From the NCBI GenBank assembly GCA_029834535.1, contig JAQMWT010000206.1:1-64000 (forward strand): a DNA stretch of 64,000 nt, given 5' to 3'. The stretch is from Chrysophaeum taylorii (Eukaryota > Sar > Pelagophyceae > Pelagomonadales > Pelagomonadaceae). The position numbers and the translations under genes were made by a program. Positions 13,009 through 43,424 of the stretch are shown piece after piece. Every line of letters starts with the position of its first letter. Positions within the stretch are counted from its first letter, which is position 1. The notes beneath the pieces were generated by a model that did not search any database, had not been told where the DNA came from, and worked only from the letters and a program-made list of their open reading frames with translations.

Positions 13009-13332
13009 TGTGGCAGTAACGCCCATTTCCCCACTTGCCTGCCTGCCACCTGACTTACCCTGATTGTTGCCCTGGTATTGACCTTAGGGGGGGGTGTCAT
13101 CTTGACACCCTCACCTGCGCTTCCACCGAACCCAATGTACCAGGCATTTGTATTGCCTTCTTGCTGTCTTCTTGATATTACCCTCATTTGATTGTCCGAT
13201 TTCGTGATGGCGTGAGGTATTACGCTGAGATCGGGCGTGTGGTGGTTTCACACGCGGTTCGGGTTGGGAGAAAGGGTTGTTGAGGCCCCTGGTCCGGCCA
13301 GGAGGGGGCGGGTATCTGAGAAGCCCACTACT
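13009..13332 (+). repeat. 5' LTR of G1
   Basis: 324 bp, TGTGGCAG at the start and CCACTACT at the end. Nearly identical to 22387-22717. It contains a perfect 8-bp hairpin, GGGTGTCA-TCT-TGACACCC, near 13095-13113. Confidence 0.9.
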
Positions 13333-13333
13333 A

Positions 13334-13347
13334 TGGTCTCAGAAACG
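13334..13347 (+). other. Candidate primer binding site of G1
   Basis: Starting one base after the LTR the sequence reads TGGTCTCAGAAAC. The leading TGG and overall form resemble a site for the 3' end of a tRNA, possibly a Met tRNA (often TGGTATCAGAG in other genomes). The exact tRNA is not identified. Confidence 0.5.
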
Positions 13348-13998
13348 GGAAATCGATAGTCCAACTCTCGGACTATCGATCTCCTGTTTCTCGGCGGCGA
13401 GTCGGTTCGTAACGGTCGAGTGAGTGCGAAGCCGACGCATTTGTGGGTGAAGATCCAGAGGATCACGGGTACCGCCGCGGGGTTCATTTTGCGTGATTCG
13501 GATCGAACGGGGAGCGGAGTCACTACGACCTATTGAGGCAAACATCGTAAGACCAACGAGGCAAAGACAGAGTAAGGCCTAACTTAGCTCGCGCGAGGCA
13601 GACCACCTCCCTGACGGCGAGCGACAGCACCGGGAAGGCCGTCCATAGTCTTCACGCGCAAGGCCAATACTCCCGTAAGTCCAGCGCACCGGTACAGCGC
13701 GCAGTCAGACGGCTGCCGGCAATTGTCGTCTGACGAAAAGAATACAACTAGTGAGTTGTGAGCGTCCGGATTAAGCCTATTATCCGGGCAAAGCGCGGTC
13801 ATGGCAGAGAGGCCAATGACAGAACGACCGCAGTGGTTTCAGGTCGCACAGGTGCGTCTGCAACGATTCAGTGCAGGGACTCCATTTGCGTCTATTGGGA
13901 GAACACCATTCAGTACGCCCTTTTAACGGCCGGAAGCCGAGGAAAGTGGCATCGGAAGAGAGGCAAGATCATCTGATAGCCTCGACAGCCCCCCAAGT
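13348..13998 (+). other. Leader of G1
   Basis: About 650 bp between LTR and gag. Small open frames on both strands have no recognisable content. I see no gene here. Confidence 0.55.
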
Positions 13999-16025
13999 GT
14001 GGTCATCCTTCCGGATCCACGCGCCGGCGAAGGGGGAGCTACGGTTGCGCCAGACGCAACTTCAAGACCGGGTGAGCCGACGTTCCCGTACGCACGACCC
14101 TACGAACGTGCGATGAATACTACGGAGTCATCTCGAGCGGAACCCGGACCGTTTACAGCGATGCGTGGACCAGAGGAGAGTGCACCTCCTAGGCCACCAT
14201 CCGCGAATACGAGAGCGACAGATTTTCGCGTGGATGTCGACCCCGAGGTTCTGCAGACCATCAACGAACGATTCGAGATGTACCAGTCGCAGATGGAGCA
14301 AATCAGACGTGAACTTGAGAACACCCGCCGCGACGCTCAACAACCACGCTCAGAAGTGGAGCGACAGCGGATCGACAACGATCGACTTCGGCGAATGGTG
14401 GAGGAATCCATGCAGGCGCATGCTCGAGAGGCACGACCAACCTCTCCGAATGCTACGCGTGTTACGCCCGACGACGATAATGACGCTGTATCGGCACTGA
14501 CCGACGATCAGCCACCGCGAAGTCGACCGGAGCCTACCCCGCACCATCATACTGACCCCGGTTCGGCGCGTCCTCGTGACGAAGAAGAGATACTCCATGT
14601 CGAGAAGGGAGCTGCTGGTATGACACGTATCACGTTTTCGAATCTCGCTGGGCAAATTACTAAGGACCGTTATGAGGTGGACGCGTGGTGGATGCAGTTG
14701 CGGCGTATGATGGAAGGCAAGATTGATGAACCCTCAATAGCGATGAATGTGATTGGAGGCGAGTATCAACTCGCCCCTATGGAAGCTTATCACAAATGGG
14801 AAGTGAACGGCCGCAGATGTGGAAACAATACAAGGATGGGACCATCACACTGAGAGAGTTGCGCCAGTATGATGAGGACTGTCTGGATGCTATGTAAGAG
14901 GCGACGAAGCTCCCTTGTCCACCTCGGGCTACGGTTGAGGAGCTTGAACGTGAATGGTTCAATTTACGGCAAGGGAATTTGTCATTGAATAAGTATATCG
15001 CGCGATGGGTGCAGAAATTCGGCCAGTGGAGAGCAATGTCAGGTCGTGATACTGATCCGGCTGCGTTCCGTTCGCACTTCATTGCTGGGCTCAATTCTGA
15101 GCGCTTACGGACGAGCGTCGAACTTGCTCAGGCATCACCGCATATGAAAGCATATACTCTCACCCTCAACGATGTCATTCAATTGACCATCCAGATTTCC
15201 AAGATTCTGGAAGCCAACCCTACTGCCAACATCGAAGAGGCGATTAAGAAGGAGAAGGGAAAGGAGCGCGCAACACGGATGAGGAGAGAGCAGCAGCAGC
15301 AGAGGCAGCAGTTGCAGCCAGTCCAACGAGTTGGTTATGTTACTGACTCGGGAGTTGGAACCTGGCTACCACAGGGGATAGATAACCATACGCGTCAAGC
15401 AATTACGACGCGCCTCAGTTGCGGCCGGCATGGTAGTTTTAACCACGACAACGGTGTGTGTCCTGTGCCGGACAATCCCTCGAGGAAGAGGCGTGCTGCT
15501 CAGACGTTGACGAATGCGGGTTTTCCAGCAACGCCAGAGGGACAGGAGCAATACCGACGGACGCTTTTAGCTGCAGCAGGACAGGCTTCAGTGACGCAGC
15601 TAGCGCCGCGCGTTGTGCAACAGCCACAGGTGGTCTACACAGCAGCACAGGTGCCAGGTGCAGGTCAACAGCAGCTGGTTGCAGACACTCAACAGCGTTT
15701 GGTTGCAGGCACTCAACAGCAGGTGGTCCGAAGGCAGCCCGCAGTGCAGCGGACCGCTCAGACCTCGGTGCGCCTGGAGGATCTGACTACGGCTCTCAAC
15801 ACGATGAACTTGATTCGTCAGGCACAGCAGACGGCTCCGCCGGTTAGAGGGCAACAGTCTCAGAGAGCGAACCCTAGCCAGCGCAATGATGGTGTCGCCG
15901 CTCGATGGCTTGAAGTGCTTGGCGAAGATCAGGATGACACTAAGCGAGCGGACTACTGCACTGTGCAGTATTCTGAGCTCATGGAGGGCAACGTGTATAA
16001 CGATGACGATGTTGGGGGGCGATGA
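13999..16025 (+). pseudogene. gag region of G1
   Basis: Two long frames (13999-14853 and 14979-16025) encode a gag-like protein. The N-terminal part is charged, with a coiled-coil-like stretch (INERFEMYQSQMEQIRREL). A capsid-like middle follows, and the C-terminal part is very rich in Gln (VTQLAPRVVQQPQVV). A Cys/His cluster (SCGRHGSFNHDNGVC) may replace the usual zinc knuckle. Position after the LTR supports gag. Fossil, broken. Confidence 0.65.
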
Positions 16026-16632
16026 TGATAGCTTCTCTGCAGAAGGCTATTCCCCTGGTGACCTCATGGAACCTCCTTCCTTTTTGGTCATCACTGAAGA
16101 CGCATGGGTGGAGGAGCAGGAGCAAAGTACCGAAGTGACTGGAGTTGCATCTAGAGTTCCCTCGGAAGACGAAGATAATCGTGGCGAATTGGGGTATACG
16201 ATTGTTCGTGTGGGACAAGATACCTTGGTCGCTATGGATATAGTGCCACCGAGGGACGACTGCGCCGAGCGTTATGCCGCTCACCCTTCCATCTCTTCGG
16301 ATTTCGAGAGTTTCTGCCCTCAGACTGCGTTGAATACCACTCAGGATCCCGACCATCGTGAAAATAAAGCCGCAAGGTACGATGGCACGAGATCCGCCTC
16401 TTTGACGTATGTGCCTGTGGCTGTCTCTTCGCTATATGGTTCGAAATATTCCATCATCGCTGCCGGGTTGGATGGCATGGCTGATCCCCCCTACATCGAT
16501 CACCGCTCGTATCGCAAACTTGATCGTGACGGCAAAATCATCTATCGTCAGCCACTCCCTACGATTCGCACTCTAAATGGGCCAGGAGGTTCGGGAGCTG
16601 CTATTCGATAATGGGTCATTCTCCGGATCTCC

Positions 16633-17715
16633 TTGGTGCCGACGACATCCATGCTGCTCATGTTCTTCGTTGGTCAAACGAATGGGCAGTTACTATTAGG
16701 AGCACGAGAATTACGACTCTTGGGTACGATTTTGGATTATGCGACAGAGAGAGCTATTTTTCGGCGTTCTGAAGTGACCATTGGAGTTCTCAAGAATCGG
16801 ACTTCCGCCTCGCCACAAGACCAGCATGGAATTGTCCTTTACAATGATGCATTCGATGCGACTCCGCAGGTAGTGCAGATGTTCCCGACAGCTAAGCTTG
16901 CTGTGCAATACGGAAATATCCAAACTTGGACGCCAGTTGGTAAACCGTGGAGTTATGACAGTCTACAGCGCTCTATTCGTAACAGAGCGAGTCACCATCA
17001 CGTTCCTCCCGGTGATCAGACTGCTGGAAAAGCGGAAGACCAACTTAAATGCCCTGCAGACCAGGCAGATATCATCCCTCATTTCGCGTACGCGACGAGT
17101 ACTCGATTTCTTCTTCCAAGCCAACCGTACTTCTTGGAGATGGAGTGCGATGTGCCGCTGGAAAAGGGTCACGTATTCCGACCTCATCGGTCACTCCTCC
17201 AAGATCGCCGCCTTGTACCTGGTTCCTATTCATCGTATTGTGCTGATGAGCCCAACGAAGTTCATGTGGCTGTGGAGCACATTGGTGACGAACCCATTGG
17301 TATCGACCCCGAAGTCCCGGTGGTCGAAGGCGAGATCATGTCGCATGAAGGATGTGTCAACATGCAGCTAGGAGCCACTGATGACGTGTGTCATGCAACT
17401 CTTACGGCGGCTGTTGACGACGATGAAGTCGAGGAGGATGTCTCGAGTGACAGACCTACTCCTCAGCCACCTCCAGATGAAGAAGTGAAAAAAACACCAG
17501 AAACGGAGATGGAGGCGACCACGAAGGAGCTGCTATCTAAGCACGCCTCCTTGGTAAGGATGCCCATCACCTACTCGTCTACTTTGCTGGCGCTGGAGGA
17601 TCAACGTCGGGTGTCCGGCGATGCAATGAGCTATATGGCAGTTCATTTCGCATTGTCCTGGCTTTGGATGCTTGTCCTCAAGCCCGAGCCACCTTTGAGC
17701 TCAATTGTCCGATGA
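16633..17715 (+). CDS. Protease-adjacent acidic region of G1
   Basis: A 360-residue frame between gag and the methyltransferase. Retroviral-type protease would be expected about here, and a DNGS-containing stretch near 16600 just upstream is a possible active-site motif. The C-terminal half is strongly acidic with Pro/Glu runs (PTPQPPPDEEVKK) and reads as a linker. I cannot assign it more firmly. It overlaps the start of the methyltransferase frame. Confidence 0.45.
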   Translation: MVPTTSMLLMFFVGQTNGQLLLGARELRLLGTILDYATERAIFRRSEVTIGVLKNRTSASPQDQHGIVLYNDAFDATPQVVQMFPTAKLAVQYGNIQTWTPVGKPWSYDSLQRSIRNRASHHHVPPGDQTAGKAEDQLKCPADQADIIPHFAYATSTRFLLPSQPYFLEMECDVPLEKGHVFRPHRSLLQDRRLVPGSYSSYCADEPNEVHVAVEHIGDEPIGIDPEVPVVEGEIMSHEGCVNMQLGATDDVCHATLTAAVDDDEVEEDVSSDRPTPQPPPDEEVKKTPETEMEATTKELLSKHASLVRMPITYSSTLLALEDQRRVSGDAMSYMAVHFALSWLWMLVLKPEPPLSSIVR

Positions 17716-18560
17716 TTCCCTATGTTTTGCATGAGTTGGGGGAATCTCATCGTCGTACATGCGACTTGGTGTTGTCGTATTTACATTCAGATTTTTGGAA
17801 GCATTCTTATTTTCATGCCAGTCCGCCGTGTATCTATGGGTCGACTGCCAATTTGCACTACAGGGACGCACGCAGGGGCGCTACTATCACTTCTTGGGTC
17901 CTGCGTCATTTCCGCAACGCACCTTATGGGATTGGACGATGGACGCTCGAGCAGGAACCATCAGTGATCCCTTTTGTGCATCACCAATTTTATGTGCCGC
18001 GTATTGTCGATTTCTATAGTATCACACCAGAGTTGCTGTGCTCGCGCACGCGCCTACTTGCGTGCAATGTTCGCTTGAACCTGCCGTTATTATCGCGTGT
18101 ACCACCGAATTTAAGGGACCGTTTTGGGCCAGCGTTGGGATTTACAGGTGGTCACCCGCTCATTATAGTGAACAGTTTCTCATCTACGCGCCCGGCTATC
18201 GGCCCTGCCTTCACGGTGACGCGCAATAAGCTCCACCTAGGACCTCATTTCTCGAACACCCGTCCACTCACGTTGCAGATGCACCAGGAATTTATGACCG
18301 TTCCTTCTACGTGGCAATGGGGTGCGACAGTTTCAGAGACAGCAGCTATGAAGCTGCTTGGCAGTATGGTGCCACCCGCGACTATGACGCGGATTGCGCT
18401 AGCAGTGCACAATTCGTTTGACCCTTCACTTCGAAATTCGGGTAAGTTGCGGAATCTTGCGACGACTACGCTAGCCCAACCTGATCACCATATTCTATGG
18501 TTTTCACCTTTGCTGTATAGTCGCGCATTCCATCGCTCGACCCTGCCACTCGAAGTGTGT
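17541..18560 (+). CDS. C5 DNA methyltransferase domain of G1
   Basis: One open frame carries nearly the full motif set of cytosine-C5 DNA methyltransferases in order. Motif I is VYFAGAGGSTSGV (17577-17615, SAM binding), followed by a VLALDACPQARATFELN block (motif II/III-like). Motif IV is HASPPCIYGS with the catalytic Cys codon at 17829. Motif VI is WTLEQEP (Glu kept, normally ENV or ENP). Motif VIII-like SRTRLLACN lies near 18040, motif IX-like LTLQMHQEF near 18270 and motif X LLGSMVPPATM near 18354-18389. About 290 residues suffice for a minimal catalytic domain. It lies between the protease/linker and reverse transcriptase. Self-methylation or modulation of silencing is inference. The frame itself stays open to 18845; the part after about 18560 is probably chance overlap with the next region. 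Confidence 0.87.
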
Positions 18561-19741
18561 CATGGCTTGCGCCCGATGAACTCTATTCTCCTGCGAGTCC
18601 TGCACCATCAGCTGCTGCCCCCACCACCCCGCCACCACCTTCAGTTCCATCGCCTGGGACGGCTTCGTCTTTTGCAGGGGGCACCGTCGCCACTGCGGTT
18701 ATGCAGAGCAACCAAGTCGACAACCAGCCCTCCGCAACTGCTGAAGAAGAAGGCACCGCGAAAGAGCGACCAGCGTATTTCAATAAGTACGACGTTCCGT
18801 GGGCGGACGCACCTCGCGACGAACATGGTCAACCTGTACCGGTGATGCCTCCTCACTTAGCGGGTCAGGAGAGCATGCAGGTCATCCCTCCGACCGTCGC
18901 GCAGGTCGAAGAGGTGATGACTGAATTAGGCATCACAGAGCATCCTGCTTTAGATGATGACGAGAAGCTGATGATGAAGCATTTAATCTCGTATTCGTGG
19001 GCATTTTTCGATGATGTGATGAGACCTGTTGATTCACCTGAAGTGACGCTCCGGTTCAAAGAAGAGAACCCGACTCCCGTCAAACTCTCGCCATATCGGT
19101 TGTCGAAAGAAAAGATTGAATGTTTGCGGATGCAGATTGAAGCGTGGACCCGAGACGGAGTTATTCGTCCCGCGAATTCTCCATGGGGGTTCCCTATTTT
19201 GATGTTGCCTAAGAAAGGTGCTGAGCCTGGCACTTCCAATGCTTACAGGGCAGCTGTCGACCTACGGCGCCTCAATGCATTGCTCAAGGATGATAGCTGG
19301 CCGAGTGTGAGCATGGCTGACGCGTTGATGTTTCTCATCGACAAGTTTTGTCGTTCCAGTTTGGATATTCGTTGGGGCTATCACAATTTACGATTGTCGC
19401 TAGATGCACAAGATGTGGTCACCTTCACTAGTCCTCTGGGAGCGTACAGCTACATGCGTCTACCTTTGGGAGTCAAACCAGCCGGAAGTTTGTTTTGCAA
19501 GCAGTTGAACACTGACTTGTCGCAATGGCTATATCGTGATCTTGTGGCATATATCGACGATATTCTCGCCGGTCACGCAGATACAAAGAATCACTTGCAG
19601 TGCCTTGTGCAAGTTATTCCCCATCTCGCCTTGAAGGGTACAGCGCCAAGATCAAGAAGATTCATTTTATGCAAGAAGTCATTGAGTTTTTGGGTCATTT
19701 ATCTACCCCGAACGGACTTCTTCCATCACCAAGGTCTTTAG
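18557..19741 (+). CDS. Reverse transcriptase of G1
   Basis: A 394-residue frame with a Pro/Ala-rich linker (first 60 residues) and then a Ty3/gypsy reverse transcriptase. It shows PYRLSKEKIECLRMQIE, SPWGFPILMLPKK, YRAAVDLRRLN, FTSPLGAYSYMRLPLGVKPA and the active site YIDDILAGH near 19555. It copies the element RNA into cDNA. A fossil element, though this domain reads clearly. Confidence 0.88.
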   Translation: MSWLAPDELYSPASPAPSAAAPTTPPPPSVPSPGTASSFAGGTVATAVMQSNQVDNQPSATAEEEGTAKERPAYFNKYDVPWADAPRDEHGQPVPVMPPHLAGQESMQVIPPTVAQVEEVMTELGITEHPALDDDEKLMMKHLISYSWAFFDDVMRPVDSPEVTLRFKEENPTPVKLSPYRLSKEKIECLRMQIEAWTRDGVIRPANSPWGFPILMLPKKGAEPGTSNAYRAAVDLRRLNALLKDDSWPSVSMADALMFLIDKFCRSSLDIRWGYHNLRLSLDAQDVVTFTSPLGAYSYMRLPLGVKPAGSLFCKQLNTDLSQWLYRDLVAYIDDILAGHADTKNHLQCLVQVIPHLALKGTAPRSRRFILCKKSLSFWVIYLPRTDFFHHQGL

Positions 19742-20451
19742 AAGCCATCAGACACATGCCAATTCCTGGCACTTTGTCGGATGCTGACCCTAAGAAGCAA
19801 GTGCGATCTTTCCTTGGAATGGGGAGTTTTCGCCGGCATTATGTAAGGAATTTTGCGAAAGTTGCAGAGCCATTAAGACAACTGACGTTGCCGGACGTGA
19901 AATTCAAGTGGACGAAAGAGTGTCAGGAAGCTTGGGATGCCATCATCGAGGCTATTGTCACTTCGAAGGGCGTCTATCATCCTGATTACTCGTTACCTTT
20001 TTACATTCGAACTGATGCTTCCGCGCATGGGTTGGGTGCTTACCTATTTCAAAAAGTACCAGTCGTTGACGACGATGGAAGAGAAAGAATCGAAGAGAGA
20101 GTTATCGAGTACTGGAGTCGAACCGTGCCTAAGTCGATGAGGAAGTACGATCCTCGGCGCTTGGAACTCCTCGCAGTACTCTCTGCTCTCGAAAATTTCC
20201 GATTTTATATCGAAGGTCATCAGACGAAGTTAGAGACGGATCATCGTAATTTAACGTTTCTGCGGGATTCGAATCATACGTCTGGACAGTTAGCACGATG
20301 GGCTATGCGGCTTGCTGCGTTCGACCGGGAGCTCGGATACAAGCCTGGAAGCTCCCCTGGCATGCGTATTCCGGATTGTCTGTCGCGCAACCCTATCGAC
20401 AAATTGATCGAGAAAGATGAAGACGGGGAACCGATCAATGAAGCTTTTTGA
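19600..20451 (+). CDS. RT connection and RNase H of G1
   Basis: A 283-residue frame overlapping the previous one. It holds the thumb/connection part (VIEFLGHLSTPNGLLPSP, FLGMGSFRRHYVRNFAKVAEPL) and a Ty3-type RNase H: FYIRTDASAHGLGAYLFQ, RRLELLAVLSALENFRFYI, LETDHRNLTFL and RIPDCLSRNP at the end. Confidence 0.85.
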   Translation: MPCASYSPSRLEGYSAKIKKIHFMQEVIEFLGHLSTPNGLLPSPRSLEAIRHMPIPGTLSDADPKKQVRSFLGMGSFRRHYVRNFAKVAEPLRQLTLPDVKFKWTKECQEAWDAIIEAIVTSKGVYHPDYSLPFYIRTDASAHGLGAYLFQKVPVVDDDGRERIEERVIEYWSRTVPKSMRKYDPRRLELLAVLSALENFRFYIEGHQTKLETDHRNLTFLRDSNHTSGQLARWAMRLAAFDRELGYKPGSSPGMRIPDCLSRNPIDKLIEKDEDGEPINEAF

Positions 20452-21506
20452 TTTTCCAAGAAATCCCCACCGATGTCCCTGGCACAGCTTGCTTCACCTT
20501 CTCTTCGGTGACGATGCCTATGCTGACGGACAGCGGACCCACCGCAGCTATGGTAGCAGTTAGTACGCGACAGAACGTACAACCGCCTCAATTCTCGTAC
20601 GAGTCTGAGCCAGTTGACTCCGTCGAACGTCTCCCTTTTGCGGATCAAGCGGAGGATGAGATTACTCTCGATGAGATAGCGAAAGAACAAGCTGAGGATG
20701 AAACATGCAAGCGCATCAGACGAAAGCTCGACTCTGAACAGAAAGATCAAGACGAGCAGTCATCCGTACCATATGAGGTTGATGACAACGTGTTGTATAA
20801 GGTCGATGATTCAGATTCTCAACGTCTTATTGTGGTCCCTCAGTCTATGCGAAAGCGTGTGATCGCCATGCATCACCGAGGATTGTTCGGAGGCCATGTA
20901 GGACGAGACTCCACAGCGAATCAAATCTTAGAACGGTATTGGTGGCCAAACGTCTCATCATCAGTTAATGAGTTCGTCAATGCCTGCATTATTTGCCAGA
21001 AGATTCGATCCACCATGCCTAGGCGTCATGGCTTGCTCTGTCAACCGAATCGCGTCGGAGATTGCTATGTCCTAGGTATGGATTTGATTGGACCTCTGCG
21101 AGGCGCTGACCTGTACACGTACATACTCGCAATGTACGATGCAGCATCGCATTTCTTGAAATTAGCTCTGATCAACACAAAACATGACTATTCGATTTTG
21201 AACGCGTTTGTGGACAAGATTTTACTTGAGGGATGTCTCCCACGGTGCATAGTCACGGATAATGGAAATGAGTTCGCGAACAGGTTATTTCGCACGTTTG
21301 TTCGTCAATTCAACGTACGTTATCGTACTACCCTTCCGTATCACCCTCAGAGTAATCATACTGAGCGTGTCAATCGATTCATCAAAGCCTTCTTGCGAGC
21401 TGCGATCGATGAACAGCGTCAGCCAGATTGGTCGACTTCCTCCCATATGTGTCATTCGCGTACAATAGGATGTACATTCCGGGAACGAAGATTTCACCTT
21501 TCATGA
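20448..21506 (+). CDS. Integrase of G1
   Basis: A 352-residue frame. The His-His-Cys-Cys zinc-binding part is HHRGLFGGHVGRD...CIICQKIR (about residues 140-185). The catalytic core follows: first Asp in VLGMDLIGPL, second Asp in CIVTDNGNEFANRLF, and the Glu in PYHPQSNHTERVNRFIKAF. This is standard Ty3/gypsy integrase. The sequence continues into short frames to about 21860 that hold the C-terminal part. Confidence 0.85.
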   Translation: MIFQEIPTDVPGTACFTFSSVTMPMLTDSGPTAAMVAVSTRQNVQPPQFSYESEPVDSVERLPFADQAEDEITLDEIAKEQAEDETCKRIRRKLDSEQKDQDEQSSVPYEVDDNVLYKVDDSDSQRLIVVPQSMRKRVIAMHHRGLFGGHVGRDSTANQILERYWWPNVSSSVNEFVNACIICQKIRSTMPRRHGLLCQPNRVGDCYVLGMDLIGPLRGADLYTYILAMYDAASHFLKLALINTKHDYSILNAFVDKILLEGCLPRCIVTDNGNEFANRLFRTFVRQFNVRYRTTLPYHPQSNHTERVNRFIKAFLRAAIDEQRQPDWSTSSHMCHSRTIGCTFRERRFHLS

Positions 21507-21736
21507 TGCGTACTGGCAAGCAACCCCTGTTACCACCCGATTACAATCTTTTGAGTGAACAGCGTGATCTACCGCAATCACGTCATCAGATTTTGGTGGA
21601 CTTTAAGATCAAGTTTGAATTTTATAGTCGACTCGTTACACGAGCTCACCAGAAAGCACAGGAGAGTCAAAAACTCAACTATGAGGCCCACCAAATTGAC
21701 ATCTAGTTTCCCCCAGGTGATTATGTTCTGCGTTTC

Positions 21737-22351
21737 GTGCCTAAGACACGCCACAAGCTACGGCCCATTTGGCGCGGACCTTACATGGTTACTAGAAAGA
21801 TCTCACCCGTCGTTTATGAAATTCGAGACGTCAACGACGATGATGCTGAATCGGTTGTAGTATCTGTACAACAGATTGTGCCTTTGAAAGTGCCAACCAT
21901 CGGCACTTCTTCCGCCCCTCTGCATTTACCATCGGACAGCGACCGGTTCAAACATGGTAAGTTCGCGATTTTCAGGGTGAAAGGACGATCCAACGCGTGG
22001 AAGAAGCGCATATATGTTGCCGAAGTCTACGAAGAATATGACCACGACAATGATACAGTTGCGCTTCATTACTATACCGATTTGGGACCGCGCGATGATC
22101 CTCGCGTCTTTGATCCTACTAAGCCGCTGGCTGAGCGACGCTTAAGACCAGAATACAAAGATGCGGACGGAGGTAGCTTCACACGCTTACGACCAAACAT
22201 GGAGGGCTGTGAACCCTGTGTGACTGATTTTCGCCCGGATGAAATCGATGTTCTCGTCACTAACTTCGGTCTCCACAGCAACAAAGTTCCTGCTGATGTA
22301 GCTGAACGAGATTATCGTACCATTCGTGAGCGTGACCTTCGTCACCCTTGA
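21737..22351 (+). CDS. Integrase C-terminal extension of G1
   Basis: A 204-residue frame. The first part (RHKLRPIWRGPYMVTRKISP) is the usual GPY-type module of gypsy integrases. A conserved segment of about 110 residues follows (KFAIFRVKGRSNAWKKRIYV, LRPEYKDADGGSFTRL, CVTDFRPDEIDVLV). The same segment occurs in G2 (63012-63743, minus), so it is a family trait. It may bind chromatin or DNA, as chromodomains do in related elements, but I do not recognise the fold. Confidence 0.65.
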   Translation: MPKTRHKLRPIWRGPYMVTRKISPVVYEIRDVNDDDAESVVVSVQQIVPLKVPTIGTSSAPLHLPSDSDRFKHGKFAIFRVKGRSNAWKKRIYVAEVYEEYDHDNDTVALHYYTDLGPRDDPRVFDPTKPLAERRLRPEYKDADGGSFTRLRPNMEGCEPCVTDFRPDEIDVLVTNFGLHSNKVPADVAERDYRTIRERDLRHP

Positions 22352-22386: not shown

Positions 22387-22717
22387 TGTGGCAGTAACGC
22401 CCATTTCCCCCACTTGCCTGCCTGCCACCTGACTTACCCTGATTGTTGCCCTGGTATTGACCTTGCACTTAGGGGGGGGTGTCATCTTGACACCCTCACC
22501 TGCGCTTCCACCGAGCCCAATGTACCAGGCATTTGTATTGCTTTCTTGCTGTCTTCTTGATATTACCCTCATTTGATTGTCCGATTTCGTGATGGCGTGA
22601 GGTATTACGCTGAGATCGGGCGTGTGGTGGTTTCACCCGCGGTTCGGGTTGGGAGAAAGGGTTGTTGAGGCCCCTGGTGCGGCCAGGAGGGGGCGGGTAT
22701 CTGAGAAAACCACTACA
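22387..22717 (+). repeat. 3' LTR of G1
   Basis: 331 bp, from TGTGGCAG to CCACTACA, preceded by a short purine-rich stretch (AAGTAGGGGG) that likely primes plus-strand synthesis. A 56-bp scrap of the same LTR type lies at 46007-46062. Confidence 0.9.
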
Positions 22718-23947: not shown

Positions 23948-26900
23948 ATGCAACTCCGTCATGCTTGTACACTGCTTCCAGCAAGTAGACCTGGCACTTA
24001 TTCTTGCGACGCGAAGATAACCGCCATCTGCTTTTCGCCAAACAATCGTAAACTGGCTGTTTGCGCCATGGATCGGGTGGTGCGATTGTTCAATGATGAA
24101 GGTGATGCTATGGATAAGTTTTCCACGAAGTCGGCTGATAAGGGTCCCAGGACGTTTGTGGTTCGCTCAATGATATTTTCGCCTGACTCTATTAAGTTGG
24201 CTGTGGGACAAAGTGACAACGTTGTTTTTGTGTACAAGATTGGATTGGAATGGGGGAAAAAGAAATCCATTTGTAACAAGTTCCTCCAGGCTTCACCAGT
24301 AACTTGCTTGACGTGGCCATCAGCGCATGTGCATGAAATCGTGTGAGTCGGATCGTCACCGTTACCTGGTCACAGTAAGCGATACCTGTCGGTAGCTATG
24401 GACTTGCCGAAGGCCAAGTGAAAATTGGTCAGATTCGATCAAACAAAGCTGCGACGTTGTATGCAACTAACTCATATGTCTGTGCTATTGCGTCCTCAAC
24501 GAATGGTCGCGGGGTTTGCTCATCCCATGTTGACGGGTCCATTCATTGCGTGCTTGTTCATGAGGTAGGATTGCTGGCAACAGAAGAAGCATCATGTTTG
24601 CTTAGGCCAATCGGACCATTTCCAACACGAAGATAGTCAAACACTCGTCAAATTCGGTGTCGTCTTGGATGAGTGTCATTTTCGGTCTTGTCTTGAATAT
24701 TGAAAGGGTACAATTTGATGCTCATAGGTGCACCCCTTACGCTATCGCTTGGGGTCATTCGTTGGTTGTTGGGGGAATTGATGGTTCCGTTGTATTTTAT
24801 GACCCCAGCGGAATCGTTCAGCAGCGATTCGACTGTAAGCAAGAAAGTGATGATGCTTCTAAGAACGATTCCAATCTAACCGTCAACGAATTTACTCTTG
24901 CGGCATTCAACGCAACTGGGGAGACAGTCGTGTTGGGTAATTGGGACCACTTCGTTGTATACACGTACAGACTGCATTATGCGACTTGGGAAGAAATTCC
25001 TTCTAAGAAGATCGACCGATTGTATGCTGTCACTGCGATGAGCTGGAAAAATGACGGTACCCGCCTAGCGACTGGATCTCTCTTTGGCGCTCTTGATGTT
25101 TATGACGCATGTGTTAGGCGTTTTCGCTACAAAGGAAAGTTTGAATTCACATATGCATCACTCTCTCAGGTCATTGTCAAGCGTGTGGACACAGGGTTGC
25201 GAATTGTCTTAAAGTCCGTTCATGCGTGTGAAATAATGAGGATAAATATATTCCATGACCGATATGTGGTTGCGAATACCCTCGATAGCAAGAGCAACAC
25301 CGAAACACTGTTACTAGGCGACCTGGTCACCTACAAACTTTCCGAAATTCAGTGGTCAAATGGAGGCTTTGAGAAATTTGTGTTTGACAATCCGCGTTTT
25401 TGCATGGTATATCAGGCTGGTGAACTCATACTGATTGAGTATGGCTGTAATGAAACAATGGGCTCAGTTACGACCGACTTCTTTTCTGGTCACGTTCTCT
25501 CGTTTCGGACAGAGTTTTATTGTGGCACTGCCGAGGGAGGCTTGTGTCCCCGCTACAGGAAAATTGCGTACTTAATGGATTCGCAGACGATTGGCCTGAA
25601 AGATCTTGTGTCCGGGAGCTTGACATCAATATTCCACGACTGTACCGTCGATTGGCTTGAACTCAACGGCCGCGCAAGTTGGTTGCTTTATCGAGATCGA
25701 CGTCACAAGCTGAACCTGTATAATGTTGACGCCCAGTCTCGTGTTACGCTCATAGATTATTGTACATATGTACAGTGGGTCCCAGACTCCAATGTCGTCG
25801 TTGCGCAGAGTCGACATAATCTATGTGTCTGGTACAATATCCATGTTCCTGACCAAGTAACTATTCACTCCATTCAAGGTGATATAGAAGATGTTGAGTG
25901 CATCGACGGCATTACCGAAGTTATTGTTCGTGAGCAGCTTTCCAGAGCGTCATATTTGCTTGATGAAACTCTGATAGAATTTGGCAAGGCTGTAGACAAC
26001 CACTCTTTTAACCCTGCAGCAGAGATTCTAGAGACGCTCGAGCTCTCGCTGGAGGCTGTGGGCATGTGGGCGAAGCTTGAACAGTTGGCGTCGTCCAACC
26101 AAGACTTTCATAACTCTGGGCGTTGTGCTGCGGCGTTGGGGAATGTTGCACGTGCGCGCTATCTGCACAAGTTAAGCAAAGTGTTATCTGATCGGGATTC
26201 AGATGTTCAAAGTTACGGAGAACGGGCAAAATACGCATTGATGTGCAAGGATCTCAATAATGCTGAGAATGTGTTCTTTTCCCTGGGGCGTTTCCACGAT
26301 GCTGTGAAAATGCACCAGAACTTTCACAACTTCGACCGAGCCGTGGTGATTGCAGAAGAAAAAGCTCATCCTGCTGCCTCAAACATGCGGCGAGCGTATC
26401 TACATTACTTGGTCGCGTCAAAACAAGAGTTGAGAGCGGCCCAACTGAAGGAGTCAGAAGGTGCCGTTCTGCGTGCAATTGAGCTGTATCTACTTGTGGG
26501 ACTGGCCTCGCGTGCTGCTAAGCTGGTAAAGCGTTACGACATAAAGAACCCTCTTACCTTACTGGAGCGGATATCTCAGGCACTTACTTCAATGAAATTG
26601 TACGAGCTGGCCGGAGACATTTATGAACGTGCAGGCCAACTGGAACATGCACTAGAGAGCTACATCCAAGGCTCAATTTTCTGTAAATCAGTCGAGCTTG
26701 CGCGTGCTCGGTTTCCAGCGCGTGTTGTAGAACTGCAGGAAGCGTGGGGTGATTTCTTATACGAAAACGATCTCGCTGAGATGGCCGTTAATCATTACAT
26801 CGAGGCCTCTCTTGGTAACAAAGCGATCAAAGCATCAATAGCCTCACGGCAGTGGATGAGAGCGTCTCAGATGCTCGATAGTATTCCTCTCGAGGTTGCA

Positions 26901-29396
26901 AAACCTTACTTGACTCAGCTGGCAAAACACTACGATGCTTCTGGGGATTTGAGCTGTGCCAAGAAGTTTTACGTAGCTGCCGGGACGTATGTAGATGGTG
27001 TGGATATGTACATGCGCTTCAACCAGTGGGAGGAAGCACACAAGATGGCATCGTCTCACCTTACCTCTGATGAGATGAAGGTCCTTTACGTAGCTCGCGC
27101 TCAAGAACTTGAAGGGCTTGGGAAGCTGAAAGAAGCGGAGCGGCTGTATGTTCTTGTCGGTGAGTATAACTTGGCCATCAACATGTACAAAAAGCATCAT
27201 CAATATGATGCTACGATTAAGTTAGTAGAGCGATACCGCAAAGACCTCCTAAATGAAACTCACCAGTATGTTGGACAGCAGCTTGAAGCTAAAGGCAGCC
27301 TTCGCGATGCTGAACAACACTATTGCCAATCTGGCGAGTGGTTGTCTGCTGTCAACATGTTTCGCACCAATGACATGTGGCCGGAGGCGCTGCGCGTGGC
27401 TAGGCTTCACGGTGGTGTGAATGCATGCAAGCGCGTTGCTTACGCGTGGGCCTTGTCACTTGGTGGCGATGCTGGTGCGCACCTATCACAACAGGGTTTG
27501 ATCGAACCTGCTATTGATTACGCGATTGAATTGGGAGCATTCAAACATGCGTTTGAACTCGCTCATGGTGGTTGTCCAGCCAAACTTTTTGAGGTACACT
27601 TAAAGCATGCATTGCACTTAGAAGACGAAGAAAGATACAAAGAGGCAGAAACCGAATTTATCAAAGCAAACAAGCCTCGCGAAGCAATTGACATGTATAT
27701 CCATCAGCATGCATGGAATGATGCGCTATCAGTTGCAGCTACTCACGATCCATCTGCATCGGCACATGTGTACATAGCGCATGCGCGTGTTGAGGCAGAT
27801 GTAGGCCAATACCAGCGTGCGGAAGATCTTTACCTGTTAGCAGCAAAGCCAGAACAGGCGCTCGCTATGTATCGCGAAGCAGGCTTGTGGGACGAAGCGC
27901 TCAAAGTGGCAGAGCGCCACTTGCCTCACCAGATGGTGGAAATTTCTCGTGCATGTGCGAAGGTCAATGAAAATGAGTGTTCAACGAAAGAAGACTTCCT
28001 CGCGGCTGGGCAGCGATGGGAAGCCAAACAGGAGTGGGAAAAAGCTGTCTCAGCGTATCTCATGGTACATCCCAGCGGGTTTGTTCATGCTGACAATGTT
28101 GAAGAAGTTCTGTATGCAGCAGTCAATGTTGCTCAAAACCATTTGCCACTACTACGTCGCGAGTGCGTAATCACAGATGTTATTCGCAGGCTCAGAGCAT
28201 TAAAAAGATATGAAGTCGCGGCTGAATTATTGCGTGAGTCGTCCAAGATAGAAGAGGCAGTTTCGTGCGCAATAGAGGGCGAGTGCTGGACTAAAGCTCG
28301 CGAGCTCGCGACTGGCATTTCAGCAATGGAAGCACAGGTTGATAGTGCATACAGGGCAGCTTTGCGTGAATCCAATGACAGCGATGGTCTTTTTCGACTT
28401 GGAGATAGCGGTTTAGCTTTAGACGTATTGGCTGATCAAAATGAGTGGGATAAACTTTGGCGTCTGGTAGATCAAAAACGCGTGGACTCTATCACTGTCG
28501 CCAAATATGCAGCTTGTCAGGCCATGCAAAGTCTGACTGAGCAGGGAAATCGCGGCGTTGATGCTGCATTGACCGTGTTGCGTAAACGAGCTGCACCCTC
28601 ACCGTTCTTATACACCGATCTGTATCAGAAATTAGCGATACTATTGATTGGGCAGGATAGTACACATGACCGCGAAGACCCTGTAGCTTGTAAAGCAAAC
28701 GCTTCTTTATTTCGAGATCTTCTTCATCATCTTGGTACCTCAGATGGCAGCACGGCGAATAAAATTCTGCAGTGTCAGCACCAACATGCGTTCTATCGAG
28801 TGCTGATGGCCGTCCACTACTTCACCATCTACTTGACGACTGTATGGTGTGGGCTGAAGACCATCGCGTTAAAAGCATCAATCACTTTGCTACGTTATCC
28901 CGATATTGTCCCCTTAGACAAGGCGTTTTACCAGGCTGGTGTACTTGCTCGTGACCTGGGCCACATGCAGCTTGCTTTCTTTTTTCTAAATCGTTACATC
29001 GACGTCACAGATGCCATCGAAAATCCAAGCTTAACGAGAATCGATAAAGCAGATTTTCCCGCTGCCACCAGCATACCATGCTCGTTTGACGTGCCTTGTA
29101 GACAGTATATCGTAAATAGCGACGAGCGTGAAGAGATTCGAGATTGGGTTCTCTCCCTTTGCATCGACAAATCCATCGATCGAGAGTTGCCTGCATCAAA
29201 TGATGCGATAGGGACCGTGTATGGTGGATTATATTTATGCGATCATGCCCAATGCATTGTAACTGGCAATCCCATCAAGCCCTCGGAAACGCTTTCCGTG
29301 AATGGCTACGCTGCTAGCAAGTCTGATTGGAACTCATATGTTCGTGCTGAAAAGAAGTGCCCTTGGACAAATGAACCCCAAGGTCCATTGTATTGA
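23948..29396 (+). CDS. IFT172: Intraflagellar transport protein IFT172
   Basis: IFT172 is a peripheral subunit of the IFT-B complex that moves cargo along cilia and flagella and helps turn trains at the tip. Exon 1 encodes the N-terminal WD40 repeats (MQLRHACTLLPA, KITAICFSPNNRKLAVC). Exon 2 (from 24396) gives YGLAEGQVKIG. The long last exon runs from about 24709 and holds further WD40 sequence (HRCTPYAIAWGHSLVVGG, MQWVPD-like YVQWVPDSNVVVAQ, LCVWYNIH). About 800 residues of TPR-like helical repeats follow (ALESY, AERLYVLVGEYNLAINMYKK, DEERYKEAETEF). The conserved C-terminus contains VPLDKAFYQAG, EEIRDWVLSLCID and VTGNPI. About 1750 residues match the usual family length. Intron 1 is clear. 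A second intron between about 24560 and 24710 is needed but its ends are not certain. The only confident host gene here; it implies a flagellated organism. Confidence 0.95.
24343..24395 (+). other. IFT172: Intron 1 of IFT172
   Basis: 53 bp, starting GTGAGT and ending GGTAG. Splicing joins HEIV to YGLAEGQV in frame, matching the order of conserved residues in animal IFT172. Very short introns are common in compact protist and fungal genomes. Confidence 0.8.
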
Positions 29397-38179: not shown

Positions 38180-38740
38180 TCGTAGGAAACGACATATCCC
38201 TGTCAAGTCGATTCCCCGCAAATCACTCTCTCATGGCACAGTCGAATACCAGAATGCAAAGGAACGGGCCAACCGCTTGCACAGGGTACATCATTGCACT
38301 GACAATGTAGCAGCCAAAGCTCCTGACGTCATTGCGCGTCCTGGCTTCTCGGCATTTGATATCCCATACCGTGACCTGTGCATCGACTGCATCTGCCACA
38401 ATAAGCGTCATCCCCACGATCACGAATACCAGACCAAGTCCAATTTTGAACTGACTCACAAACCGGGTGAAGTCTGGGTCTGCGATGGTGGTTACGTCAC
38501 CATCCCTTCAGAATGGGGTGGCTTCACCCACATCATTGTCTTTAAGGAACTGCTGTCGAAATTCTTGTTGGCCTACTTCACTCGCACTACCAACGCGACC
38601 GAATTTACACAAGCCCTTGACTACCTTTATGCATTTTGTAGAACTCAACTCAATGTACATCTACGCACTGTTTATTCCGACGCCTTTCGTCCGTACTTCA
38701 GCCAACATATCACCACACCCTATCTGGTGGATAAAGGCAA
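38180..38740 (+). pseudogene. Integrase (partial) of B2
   Basis: Part of the open frame 37272-38819. It shows the zinc-binding part (RLHRVHHC...LCIDCICHNKRHPH) and the start of the catalytic core, with Asp in VWVCDGGYVTIP and the second Asp in TVYSDAFRPYF. The homology to A-family integrase ends near 38740, where element C sequence begins, so the frame's last 25-30 residues are not integrase. Confidence 0.78.
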
Positions 38741-39297
38741 AACGTGGCGCAAGCCGTGGATTGCTCCTGCTGGTATTTCCAGTTGTGACCATACTCTGAA
38801 GCGATATTGCGTCTGGTGAAGAGTTTTCCATCGTCAACACGTTTCACGATATAGAGTTGATCCTTAGGGATGCGAAATCCGCGCTCGTCCTTGAGATCTG
38901 CCTTGAGTTTGACGCTTTGGTTGCGATGCACGAAAACTGGGGTAAAACCTGAATCGTCGAGAACAACCTCTAATCGGTCGTTTCGTTTGGGCATCGGAAT
39001 GCTACCATCCGGCGGGGGTGGCCGGTTGAGGAACGAAAAATCCTGTTCAGGTGTCTCGTCGCTGACGGGACTTGGATCAGAATCGGGAGTTGGATCCAGT
39101 TCTTTGTGCTCGTCGTCATCTTCAGGTTTATCATCATGGTCGTCATCTTGAGTCTCGCCCTCATCTGTCGATTCCTGTCTAGCTTCCGGCATTTGCTGTT
39201 CGCTTATAGCTGGGAGCGGGTCCTCTTGTCGTGCCTCTGTTGGGATCTGTGCGAGTGCTTTGATCCGTTCGATCTCCTTGTTGCGGTTGACTGGCAT
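38741..39297 (-). pseudogene. Integrase C-terminal and linker region of C
   Basis: Open frame 38710-39297 (195 codons): KALAQIPTEARQE, a long acidic Asp/Glu-rich linker, FSFLNRPPPPDGSIPMPKRN and DERGFRIPKDQLYIVKRVDD. The acidic linker and position after the integrase core suggest the C-terminal tail of integrase before reverse transcriptase. The last residues overlap B2 sequence. Confidence 0.5.
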
Positions 39298-39689
39298 GTC
39301 TGCGTCAACGTGAAAGTCGTTAGAGGTGACGATTTTTCCATATCGCCCCTGATGTACAAGCAGTAGGGAGCTATGGACATCACGGATAAATCGGTCCGTG
39401 CCGGGGAGGTTGGGGACGTAATTGTTGCTTGTGAGATAGGAGGCGGAGACGAGGCGGAGACGCTGGGGGGTTCCAGCTTGTGACTTTGAGGGTAAACAAA
39501 GGTGACAGGTTCACCAAAGGGAAGGAGCTACAAGAGCGGTGCCATGGGTGACATGATGCGCCGGGGAACGGTGCATACCATGTTTGTGCGCGAGGGCAGT
39601 CCATGAGAGCGCTGGTTGTCGGCTTGGATCTTGTGCAGTAGAGCAAATGGGTGATAATACTCGGCGGCAATAGACATTCCTTCGATGCG

Positions 39690-40430
39690 TACACTGCGAA
39701 GGTTGAGGAGGCGAACTACAGTGCCTCGGGTGTTTTCCTTGATGATGTTTGCCGCAAAATTCCGCTGGTGGAAGTGGCGACCAAGGAGGTAAGAATGGTG
39801 TGGAGGACGGCGTTGGTTTCAAAGTGGGAGTTGCGGATGTCAGCGTGGGCGTTCCTTGATGATGTTTGCCGCAAAATTCCGCTGGTGGAGGTGGCGACCA
39901 AGGATTAGAAACTGGATGCCAAGTTGCACCTTGAGCGGGTGGAAAGCTTCGGAGCGGAAAGTTGAGAATGCATCAGACGAGATGATTTTCACATTGACAT
40001 CGAATTCGACCTTAATCACATTGACCACGTAGAGGATGCCGGCCAGAACGTCCTGTGCGTCTAGTTTCCGCAGGAAATAGACCCACTTGTGTGCTGAGAT
40101 AATACACACGAAATGCATGATGGAACGAAATCAATCATGGCATTTGCTGGTGCTCGGGTATGAGACATCCATGTGGAGGTGTTGGCCAGGATCATAGGCC
40201 AGTTCATCCTGTGACCAGGAATTGTTCTTGTGACTGAAGCCTACATGCGATTGGCAGCGCTTGCATTCACTGCAGTCTTGCAGATACCGATCATCACCGG
40301 GGCGGAGATTCGATACATTGGCGGCAATCGTGCGGCGAAGAATCTCTTGTTGCTGGTGATGTGTGCGGTGCCAGCGAGTGACCAAAAGCGCTCTTTTGGC
40401 GTGCTGAATGGTGCCGGGCTTGTGCAAGGG
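39690..40430 (-). pseudogene. Integrase zinc-binding and core region of C
   Basis: The frame at 40131-40427 shows a His/Cys pattern (RWHRTHHQQQ...CSECKRCQSHVGF) and core start YDPGQHLHMDVSYP. The frame at 39840-40118 continues with VKIISSDAFSTFRSEAF (second Asp). These match the positions of the A and B integrase landmarks. Fossil. Confidence 0.7.
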
Positions 40431-40759
40431 AGGCAGAGCGGCAGTCGAAGCGCTGGGGGGGGGCTGGGTCGCTTGTCGACTCGGATTTTAGCAACGGTTG
40501 CCTCCGCAAGAAGCGTCTCTAGATTTTCCGATTTGCTTGGTTTGCGGATCGCATCATAGTGAGCATCTGCTATGGCATTGAAGAGGGAGGTGAGAGTGAG
40601 GTCCTCCTCTGCCAATAGACGGCGGGAGATGCTCATGAAGAAGTCTGCAACCTGGGTGGTGTCTCCTGGGCTGGGGATGCCACTGCGTATTGTTGCCCAT
40701 TCGATGTGAAAGTTCACGTGGTGGTGCGATTCGTGGAGTGCGAGAACAGCGCTGTACTT

Positions 40760-42330
40760 TGCCTGCAGCATGTGGTGCGGGACGGCGTTGGCCAGTGCCT
40801 TAAACGCGAAGTACGGCGGTTGCTGTTGGAACAGACGGAGCAGTTCCGGGTCCGAGTGGTGTCCAAACTTTGCGATTTCGTTGAGGGTCGCATAGCGGAT
40901 GTGGTCTGGAGAGATCAGCAGCAAGGCGTTTGAGTAGCTCGTGTTGGTTGGGTACGAGCCAGTGACCGAGTAACACTTTGTGCTTTTCTGAAGCGTGTCT
41001 CCGATGTGGCCGACATAGTCCGCGTAAGTGGGACGTACTTTGGACATAATGAGTCCCTTGGCGTCATCGAGAGTAATTCGCCCTCGTGAGTCGATCGCGG
41101 CAAAGCCAGGATGGGAACGATTCATATAGTGGACCCAAGTGGACGGGCGCGAGCATCTGTGAGCGGCGGCCAAGGAGGTGGTGTAGGCGACGACCAGAAA
41201 GGCGGCACCCTTGGGAACATCCAGGGAAAAGGCGTGCGTTGGGGAGAAGACTGCGGGTTGATGGGGACAGTCCAATATCTGAGGGGGCCTGGAATGTAGG
41301 GTGAGGGAGGCGCGCGGGAAGTAGCCACATGCGACGGCAGTAGCGGCGGTGCCGGTGATGGCTCCATCCAAATGGTAAGCACATTGAGACTCTGAGGCAT
41401 GAAAACAGCGGATGGTGTTCCAAGCGGCGAGAGTGGGGTGTTGCGACAAATGGCTGTGCAGTAATGTGAAAACCAGGAGGTGGGAAATGGGCGCCATGGT
41501 GGCGTAGGGGGTGCCGTCGGCATCTAGACCGAGGTCCGTGAAGGGCTTGGTGAAGCGTGCGAGCATTTGGCAGATGCGTGCATTTTCGGAAATCGAGGGT
41601 TTAGCGGCGTTGGCGGGCGCGTAGGAAAAAGTGGCCTTGTGTTGGTAGTAGGTCAAGGTGGAGCGGGGCACGGTGCCACGAAGGGCGGGGTTGGCGATCC
41701 ATAGATCGTCGGGGATATTTGCTGGGGTCCAGAAGGGGGACCATGAGGAGATGTTAACCATGGAGAAGCGTTTTTCTCGAGGTTGTACTCGGTGAGCGGG
41801 TGTCGGGCATAGACAGCGAGGTAGCGGGTCTTGCTGATGACGTCACCAAAAGCGGAGGCGTTGTAGACACCGGAGTGTCGGAAGTAGCCTAAGCGCTGAT
41901 AGCATTTGGCGAGTTGGGTGTACTCGTGATGAGTTCGGGGGTTTGGAGGGACGTTCTCGACAATGGCGTAGGTCGGGAGCGTGCAGCGAACAAAGCGGAA
42001 TTGTTCTGTGACGAAAAGGCCGGCGGTCACCGGAGTGGCGTAGCCGTCATATTCTTTCATTACACTCAAATGTTGACATGGCAGTGTGAAAACCGCTAAG
42101 TCGAAATGGGGTAGTCGAATTTTGCCGGTTTGCAGAGCGGCATTTAGTTTTCTGAGGTCCGCATAATGCTGAGCATGCGGGAAGATTTGTTACGCGCGAG
42201 CGCGCATAATAGGGTGAATTTCGCAGGTGACCACGACAGTAATACGGTTGTCGAAGCGTTTGCGAAAAGAGGTGAAACCTTCTTGGTGAAGTCCACCTGC
42301 GATAATAGCTGTTTTAAGCGGAGGGGGGGG
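40760..42330 (-). pseudogene. C5 DNA methyltransferase domain of C
   Basis: This has the most canonical motifs of the copia-borne set. Motif I-like TAIIAGGLHQEGFTSF with the following CEIHP lies at about 42200-42325. Motif IV FDLAVFTLPCQHLS (catalytic PCQ) lies near 42060-42110. Motif VI TYAIVENVPP is near 41960. Motif VIII NASAFGDVISKTRYLAVYAR is near 41820-41870. Motif IX-like IRYATLNEIAKFG is near 40865-40900. Motif X ALANAVPHHML is near 40770-40800. A long variable target-recognition part separates VIII and IX. Several frames are used; the copy is broken. Assignment to the cytosine-C5 family is firm. Confidence 0.87.
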
Positions 42331-43197
42331 TGCTTGCACAGATAGATCCGCTGTGGTAGTAAACGCGTATTGGACGACGGGACGCGGGAGGCGAATGAGT
42401 TCAGATAAAAATATGGAGTGATGCTGGAGCTTTGCAAAATCTAACATGTGAGATTGCGAGCGTGTCTTTGCAACATGCTGTGTGATGTTTGCGAGTTCAT
42501 CCTTGAGTGACATTCGTGTTCCAGTGTGGAAACTAACCACAGCGCGGAATGTTTGCTTTGGATGAGACTGCAGGGACAAGAGGCCATTGGTTTGGCGATT
42601 GGCGAGAACTATGGCTGTTTTTCCTAGAAGCGTCTTGTAATCGTGTGGATCAGCCGTCGACGTGTTCATTAGCTCATACAGGTATGGTTCATGTGGCAAT
42701 GGAGGGTCTGTTGCTTGTACATTCAGAGCTTTGAGCTGAGATGTCGCGATAACCTGTAGACCTTTGCGGAATTGCGGGACGACCAGAAATACAAGGTATA
42801 ATGCGCAACCAGTTGACTGTTTGATATCCTTGGGGGAGAGACCTGCGGCCTGTAAGTACAACGGTTTGACACCGATGAAATGGCTGGTCAAGGTGCCTCT
42901 TCCCATGCGTATGGTGTGTTCGGGAATCCGGCGTATGGACTCGGGAACAAAGTGTTGAATTGTGCGTGTGAAGCAGAAGGATGCGCCACCGTCAATTAAC
43001 GAAGTTTCAGCGCCGGGTCCATTGCATCCGTGCAGCGAGTAAGCCTTCTTTGATGTCTTTCCTGGAGTGCAAGTGGCACAAAGAAAATCTACGACCCTGG
43101 GTGAGATGTTTGATGATGTCGGGAAATTTGTCATCGTGACGCTTGGTGCCTGATTGAGTAAGATGTGGTTGGCGGCACAGGCGTCGTCGGCAACCAT
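42331..43197 (-). pseudogene. Protease-like region of C
   Basis: Part of a 335-codon frame (42190-43197). An aspartic-protease-like motif, ETSLIDGGASFCF, lies near residue 70, where family A has DTCAS. A segment GCALYLVFLVVPQFRKGL follows. The C-terminus of the frame enters methyltransferase motif I, so protease and methyltransferase appear to belong to one polyprotein, as in A and B. Confidence 0.6.
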
Positions 43198-43424
43198 CAG
43201 CGAAAAAGCTGACTCTGGTGGAGAGCACGCATGTAGTCACTGTGACGTTGTGCGTAATCTTCGGCGGAATCATCTTCATCGTGGACTTCGGGGATGGTGT
43301 CGTCGTAGAGGCCTAGGTGTCCGTGGTCATCATAGAAACCGAGATGGCAGTGGTCATCTTTTTCGTCAGTTTCGCCCTCATCAGGTGGATCTTCCGGAGG
43401 ATCGGACGATAGCATCTGAAGAAA

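Follow-up and report, generated by a model that had tools for sequence, protein, structure and literature searches.

A predicted C5 cytosine methyltransferase as a conserved polyprotein domain of Ty3/gypsy-type retrotransposons in the pelagophyte alga Chrysophaeum taylorii

Retrotransposons that encode their own C5 cytosine methyltransferases (MTases) have been described in dinoflagellates and streptophyte algae. The accessible part of the report by de Mendoza et al. (2018, PMC5890265) describes KnitGypsy-Dnmt3 of Klebsormidium nitens, a gypsy-type LTR element present in several copies that encodes a C5 MTase in its Pol frame under purifying selection. The same source presents SymbioDIRS-Dnmt3 and SymbioLINE-Dnmt of Symbiodinium as high-copy retrotransposons that likewise encode C5 MTases; SymbioDIRS enzymes show de novo CG methylation activity in yeast, and the authors suggested self-methylation of retrotranscribed DNA for their elements. 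Morozov et al. (2019, PMC6338049), in the portion available to us, include stramenopiles in a general way with the hosts of methylase-bearing Ty3/Gypsy and DIRS elements, and the available portion of a 2025 survey (PMC12344493) reports DNMT3 in LTR Copia and DIRS elements. Among titles and abstract openings of the open literature, with subscription journals and preprints outside this scope, no pelagophyte case of a retrotransposon MTase was found. The words "transposon", "transposable" and "gypsy" are absent from the available text of the Chrysophaeum taylorii genome paper (71 Mbp, 702 contigs; PMC10366177).

The C. taylorii element described here shares with KnitGypsy-Dnmt3 the presence of a C5 MTase within a gypsy-type polyprotein, and differs from it in three respects. 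Its LTRs are ordinary, whereas the terminal repeats of the Klebsormidium element are described as DIRS-like; its MTase shows no Dnmt3 similarity among PDB chains (E up to 1), whereas the Klebsormidium enzyme is a Dnmt3 (PMC5890265); and its host is a stramenopile (pelagophyte) rather than a charophyte. The Symbiodinium carriers are DIRS and LINE elements instead of Ty3/gypsy, and CG depletion, discussed for SymbioLINE-Dnmt in the same source, is not seen in the C. taylorii copies. C. taylorii is apparently a separate, third case beside the two algal lineages already known, dinoflagellates and streptophyte algae.

The window, that is, the whole stretch of DNA analyzed (64,000 nucleotides; positions 1 to 64,000 of contig JAQMWT010000206.1, assembly GCA_029834535.1), contains a 9.7-kb LTR element whose pieces match Pfam domains in the order reverse transcriptase (RT), RNase H, integrase. 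Since RNase H precedes integrase, this is the Ty3/gypsy order, and Pfam found the same order in the 2114-2115-aa frame of another copy, L046. The element comprises the following features:

13009-13331, + strand: 5' LTR (TGTGGC...CACTAC), 96.1% identical to the 3' LTR
13334-13350, + strand: candidate primer-binding site (TGG...), directly 3' of the 5' LTR; a similar sequence follows the 5' LTR in copy L041
13927-14850, + strand: Gag region, piece 1, an open frame; 92-94% identity in L041 and L043 at the equivalent position
14898-16022, + strand: Gag region, piece 2; weak Retrotrans_gag match below cut-off (E 0.0081); 94-97% identity in L041-L043
15814-17712, + strand: protease-like region, one frame split in two by a stop at 16609-16611; likeness to retropepsins by eye
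17571-18515, + strand: predicted C5 cytosine methyltransferase domain, within frame 17541-18845; PF00145 and an alignment with 12 relatives
18521-19738, + strand: reverse transcriptase; RVT_1, E 4.4e-9
19540-20448, + strand: RNase H; RT_RNaseH, E 1.7e-26
20442-21503, + strand: integrase zinc finger and core; Integrase_H2C2, E 1.8e-18, and rve, E 1e-7
21707-22348, + strand: integrase C-terminal part; Integrase_p58_C, E 2.6e-6
22387-22716, + strand: 3' LTR, with purine-rich AAGTAGGGGGCTCC just before it

The paired LTRs align over 330 positions with six mismatches and seven gap positions. The primer-binding role of the TGG... site, which has a single match in the window at up to two mismatches, is suggested by its position. 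The window copy has decayed, with its pieces in shifting frames and the MTase frame bounded by frame breaks at both ends. Other copies hold gag, protease-like region, MTase and RT in one frame, as in L041 (1815 aa, gag into RT) and L045 (2129 aa, gag through RT), and in L046 the single open frame runs from protease to integrase. No clear target site duplication was seen around the window copy; candidate 4-bp duplications were noted by eye in L047 (TACG) and L041 (CACA).

Elsewhere in the window, an IFT172 gene lies 2 kb downstream of the element (24606-29396, + strand), mostly as one 1596-codon open frame whose best PDB chain, 8bd7_S, is matched from chain residue 198 onward. What is left of a different gypsy element lies at 63012-63752 (- strand) and shares about 49% identity, across 160 aa, with the final piece of the present one; long frames at 56298-58992 (+ strand) resemble, by eye, a Ty1/copia RT-RNase H polyprotein.

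The region upstream of the MTase is called protease-like only, because the D[ST]G active site of retropepsins was not found in it and no Pfam protease matched within 16612-17712 or in the L046 frame. Where retropepsins have D[ST]GA, it carries DGMAD (LDGMAD at 16468-16485 in the window). With the two residues that follow the Asp left free, a pattern search matched 37 of 47 records, some of which are overlapping loci of one copy, and all 37, from the families designated A, B and C below, read DGMAD. Judged by these residues, the protease would be either unusual or inactive.

The first-pass annotation, made from the letters of the window, had proposed a compact C5 MTase lying before RT in a Ty3/gypsy element. 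All the motifs that it quoted (FAGAGGSTSGV, SPPC, WTLEQEP, SRTRL and LGSMVPPA) do occur in one open frame, 17541-18845 (+ strand, stop to stop, 434 aa). They are listed here under the numbering and definitions that we take to apply to this frame, together with their conservation in two alignments, A1 (13 sequences, families A-D) and A3 (30 rows, with 20 relatives of the host DNMT2 added):

17583-17615, + strand: motif I, FAGAGGSTSGV (SAM binding); F and GAGG invariant in 13/13
17820-17831, + strand: motif IV, SPPC (catalytic Cys); Cys invariant in 13/13 of A1 and 30/30 rows of A3
17946-17957, + strand: motif VI, LEQE within WTLEQEP (17940-17960); E134, Q135 and E136 invariant in 13/13
18042-18056, + strand: motif VIII, SRTRL (RxR); R166 and R168 invariant in 13/13 of A1 and 30/30 of A3
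18357-18380, + strand: motif X, LGSMVPPA; VPP invariant in 13/13

Motifs I, IV (PPC), VI, VIII (RxR) and X of C5 MTases follow one another in the expected order, and the catalytic residues are invariant though the MTases of families A and C are only about 40% identical. Two departures were recorded: the second Pro of SPPC is Leu in L066, and motif VI retains its Glu, yet reads EQE instead of ENV in all 13 members. The homologous part is 17571-18515, and within it the distance from motif I to motif X is about 266 residues, rather than the roughly 290 first estimated. Nor is the enzyme unusually compact, since the domain measures 322 aa in copy L010 and 327 aa in M.HhaI. As the annotation had observed, no start codon precedes motif I, the first Met being residue 58, beyond that motif; this is explained by a polyprotein domain whose frame, in the window copy, is broken shortly before motif I, and not by a hidden separate gene.

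The profile comparison that the annotation had suggested bore out the assignment. PF00145 (DNA_methylase) matched the window frame with E 1.9e-6 and 28 bits, above the Pfam cut-off of 22, and all 13 members of A1 (E up to 1), with a best E of 2.6e-10; L010 scored 38.6 bits. A chance match is ruled out by this result in the window and in 13/13 relatives, together with at least 125 matches in the genome. A search of NCBIfam with the window frame gave no match, and phmmer against PDB sequences with the same query returned two weak, unrelated matches. An AlphaFold2 model built from A3, whose input includes the 20 DNMT2 relatives, reached pTM 0.73 and a mean pLDDT of 64.9, and as far as motif VI its strands alternate with helices; A1 by itself gave a poor model (pLDDT 38.3). 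At the level of its residues, the domain carries the motif set of an active C5 cytosine methyltransferase.

The C. taylorii genome (70.8 Mb, 697 contigs as searched) contains many such domains, which were grouped into families named A to D in this analysis. With the window MTase, of family A, as query, at least 125 matches were obtained (119 of 901 candidates scored), most full-length ones at 85-94% identity. A family B query gave at least 134, overlapping the A-query set, and a family C query at least 136 (136 of 1002 candidates scored); the latter are a set separate from A and B, because each is at least 80% identical to C. All these counts include a few cases in which one copy is matched in two pieces. 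Relative to A, family B is 77-79% identical in the MTase and 35-47% in gag, and family C about 40% in the MTase; family D is 80-84% identical to C. No internal stop interrupts 115 of the 136 C/D matches, and one copy lies within a 3067-codon open frame. A drop to 57% identity in one copy (L048, contig C95) had suggested a swapped target-recognition part; this was rejected, as DNA identity is 92% across 1104 positions and frameshift noise accounts for the drop. In the MTase region of L055 (contig C543), a family A remnant adjoins a piece of family C with the opposite orientation.

Among 135 RT matches, 105 at 75% identity or more were kept (29 at 59-61% and one short fragment were excluded), and 75 of these have an MTase match no more than 5 kb upstream in the same orientation, with a modal gap of 352 bp. 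Eight of the remaining 30 have MTase remains, four detected by the family B query and four by reading L052-L055; six are without most or all of the MTase, and 16, some at contig ends, were left unassigned. A family C copy from the excluded 59-61% group, L049, has the MTase in the equivalent place, and in the family D copy on contig C235 an RT match lies just downstream of it. The MTase occupies an identical position in families A, B and C, and its presence in families A-D shows that it is old within the clade.

Selection on the domain was evaluated from pairwise dN/dS (Nei-Gojobori). Between families A and B the MTase gave dN 0.115, dS 1.34 and dN/dS 0.085 (90 pairs), compared with 0.070 for RT (48 pairs) and 0.246 for the protease linker (60 pairs); between C and D it gave 0.066 (28 pairs), at a dS of 1.78 that is near saturation. 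Median values within family A were 0.25 for the MTase (411 of 435 pairs), 0.36 for RT and 0.44 for the protease linker, and these lean towards intact copies because the A copies were the best-scoring ones, a bias that affects the between-family values far less. The MTase ratio was 0.136 within C (21 pairs among seven entries, L049 and L056 representing one and the same copy), 0.137 within D (6 pairs) and about 1.0 within B, where only three very young pairs were available. Between families, purifying selection constrains the MTase to about the same degree as RT. Retention in families A-D together with low between-family dN/dS makes the MTase a core, selected part of the element, and both its identity as a C5 MTase and the selection acting on it can be regarded as very nearly certain. 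The interpretation of the annotation, a C5 MTase located before RT inside a Ty3/gypsy element, is supported by Pfam, by more than 100 genome matches and by this between-family constraint.

The annotation had named related copies without the segment as a refutation of its claim, and some such copies do exist. L050 and L051 have no MTase, and both of their flanks are 98-99% identical to L045 and L046, family B copies that carry the MTase. The deletion corresponds to positions 4616-5723 of L046, and its junction reads through in L051, in one 699-aa frame, and does not in L050. A 120-base junction probe gave 42 genome matches, with the whole junction present at 97-100% in four places, on contigs C248, C394 (C394:33324), C209 (C209:18513) and C335, two of which were read. 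In two further copies (C311:80112 and C51:6668) the flanks lie 126 bases apart around unread sequence, while ten copies have about 1.1 kb between the flanks and two have 0.84 and 1.0 kb. Most or all of the MTase is lost in 6 of these 18 family B copies with both flanks, a count that excludes nine one-flank matches and a diverged junction-spanning match at C299:20771 (83%), possibly another copy without the MTase.

These copies are best read as secondary losses and not as the state before capture, because the MTase is present in families C and D, which are more distant. The four junction copies represent four separate insertions, since their 3' flanking DNA diverges immediately beyond the LTR. 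The simplest reading is a single deletion in a copy that then transposed; spread of the junction by gene conversion is possible. A deletion derivative at four separate insertion sites implies that the MTase is not essential in cis, and the derivative would perhaps be helped in trans.

Concerning the origin of the enzyme, the best-matching models are those of bacterial type II, DruM and DrmMII C5 MTases, although these describe bacterial defence proteins. The PADLOC models PDLC03378 and PDLC00033 match all 13 members (best E 8.6e-13 and 2.1e-12), the best stretches in L010 being limited to motifs I-IV or to the C-terminal portion; phrog_116 also matches 13/13, and TIGR00675 (dcm) does so far below the cut-off of that model. 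By profile score, the closest models look to be bacterial type II MTases, in libraries that contain few eukaryotic DNMT profiles. A search of a protein database with a single MTase (E up to 10) or the alignment (E up to 0.01) found no relatives among proteins of 0.55-1.75 times the query length, a range that places long polyproteins beyond its reach, and none of 29 pattern matches in viral_contigs was confirmed.

The host genome encodes two C5 MTases outside the elements. A DNMT5 (L002) matches chain 7r76_A with E 3e-143; this chain is deposited as "DNA repair protein Rad8" and we take it to be Cryptococcus DNMT5. A DNMT2 (L001, contig C634) is identical over 360 aa to CTAYLR_008533 of C. taylorii; its gene overlaps an opposite-strand frame with light-harvesting protein sequence (L001 1498-2577 and 691-2316). 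A Perkinsus origin of the genome was considered and rejected: its cytochrome c1 scores better against chains that we take to be fungal and animal than against that of Toxoplasma. The window itself contains a second retroelement-like stretch (38710-45017, - strand) with a C5 MTase at 41791-42234 (PF00145 profile 25-166, one TAA), whose relatives L003-L005 have ENV and TLPCQ motifs. No similarity was detectable between this MTase and the gypsy one (hhalign E 0.29), and Pfam did not confirm the Copia identity that the annotation had assigned to the stretch.

It can be proposed, tentatively, that a prokaryote-type C5 MTase, restriction-modification or DruM-like and not a host DNMT, was captured long ago by an LTR retrotransposon and turned into a core polyprotein enzyme under selection, that at least one lineage lost it and yet inserted at new sites, and that the same genome harbours a second group of C5 MTase retroelements whose enzyme has no detectable sequence relationship to the first. 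Equally tentative is the capture of one of the host's own DNMT genes, as described for Dnmt3-bearing elements, and its divergence beyond recognition. The known precedents are of host-derived Dnmt3 type, according to the accessible part of de Mendoza et al. (PMC5890265), and hhalign aligned the element MTase with the host DNMT2 with collinear motifs, at a remote E of 2e-4 and a probability of 48%. Host capture is countered by the absence of similarity to the host DNMT5 (E 0.48), by a PDB-chain profile search (E up to 1) whose single match was 8yf3, a "Cytosine-specific methyltransferase" with E 0.086, and which contained no DNMT3, and by the better match of bacterial type II models, the eukaryotic DNMT profiles compared being those of Pfam and the PDB chains.

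As regards function, we give a probability of roughly 60% to the reading that the C5 MTase is a built-in Gag-Pol domain between the protease-like region and RT in this Ty3/gypsy-type clade, kept by selection, made with RT and marking the element's own cDNA or its insertion site. Produced as part of the RT polyprotein, the enzyme would be packaged with RT in the particle where the cDNA forms. Its substrate during transposition would be this cDNA or the insertion site, and a new copy would thereby already carry the mark on entry into the genome. Such a mark could mask or protect the new copy, or tune its silencing by the host DNMT5 system. Action on the cDNA specifically, suggested by the position of the domain, falls a little short of an even chance. 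The findings that count against the overall reading are the EQE in place of ENV, the 6 of 18 family B losses, the B-B dN/dS near 1.0, the lack of an NCBIfam match and the dcm score below cut-off. Lasting CpG marking is disfavoured, because the copies show no CpG depletion (observed/expected 1.03-1.07 in A/B stretches and 1.27-1.28 in C) and no CpG excess of transitions over transversions. Relative to other C/G sites, transitions at CpG are 1.6-fold higher and transversions 2-fold higher, and since the transversion excess is the larger, there is no deamination footprint. The marks could instead be transient, non-CpG or repaired.

The enzyme might instead be conserved for other targets, modifying host chromatin and thereby the host epigenome, or acting in defence against competing invaders such as other elements or DNA viruses. 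A retained, selected MTase is compatible with any DNA target, bacterial defence models match all 13 members, and an antiviral role for retrotransposon methylases was proposed in the available part of Morozov et al. (2019, PMC6338049); nevertheless, this appears unlikely, given that the MTase sits in the polyprotein next to RT, which favours action in the particle. It is improbable that the MTase is no longer a working enzyme and is retained as a structural or nucleic-acid-binding spacer: the altered motif VI and the loss tolerated in one lineage would fit such a role, whereas the catalytic Cys, the motif VI Glu, RxR, the motif I glycines and VPP are invariant in 13/13 members from families about 40% identical, and the A-B dN/dS is nearly as low as that of RT. 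That an MTase gene entered a single gypsy copy by chance or as a nested insertion, which the window copy seen alone might suggest, is refuted by the at least 125 A-query and at least 136 C-query matches and by the equivalent position in families A, B and C, with 75 of 105 RT matches preceded by an MTase at a modal gap of 352 bp, and it retains a negligible probability.

A pelagophyte element whose enzyme looks different from those already described would imply that retrotransposons have captured MTases repeatedly, and from more than one source. Four MTase-bearing families and MTase-less sister copies coexist in one 71-Mb genome of a cultured alga, forming a natural comparison set in which new insertions with and without the MTase may be directly compared for methylation and expression. 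This opens to testing the question of whether a retrotransposon gains by methylating DNA itself.
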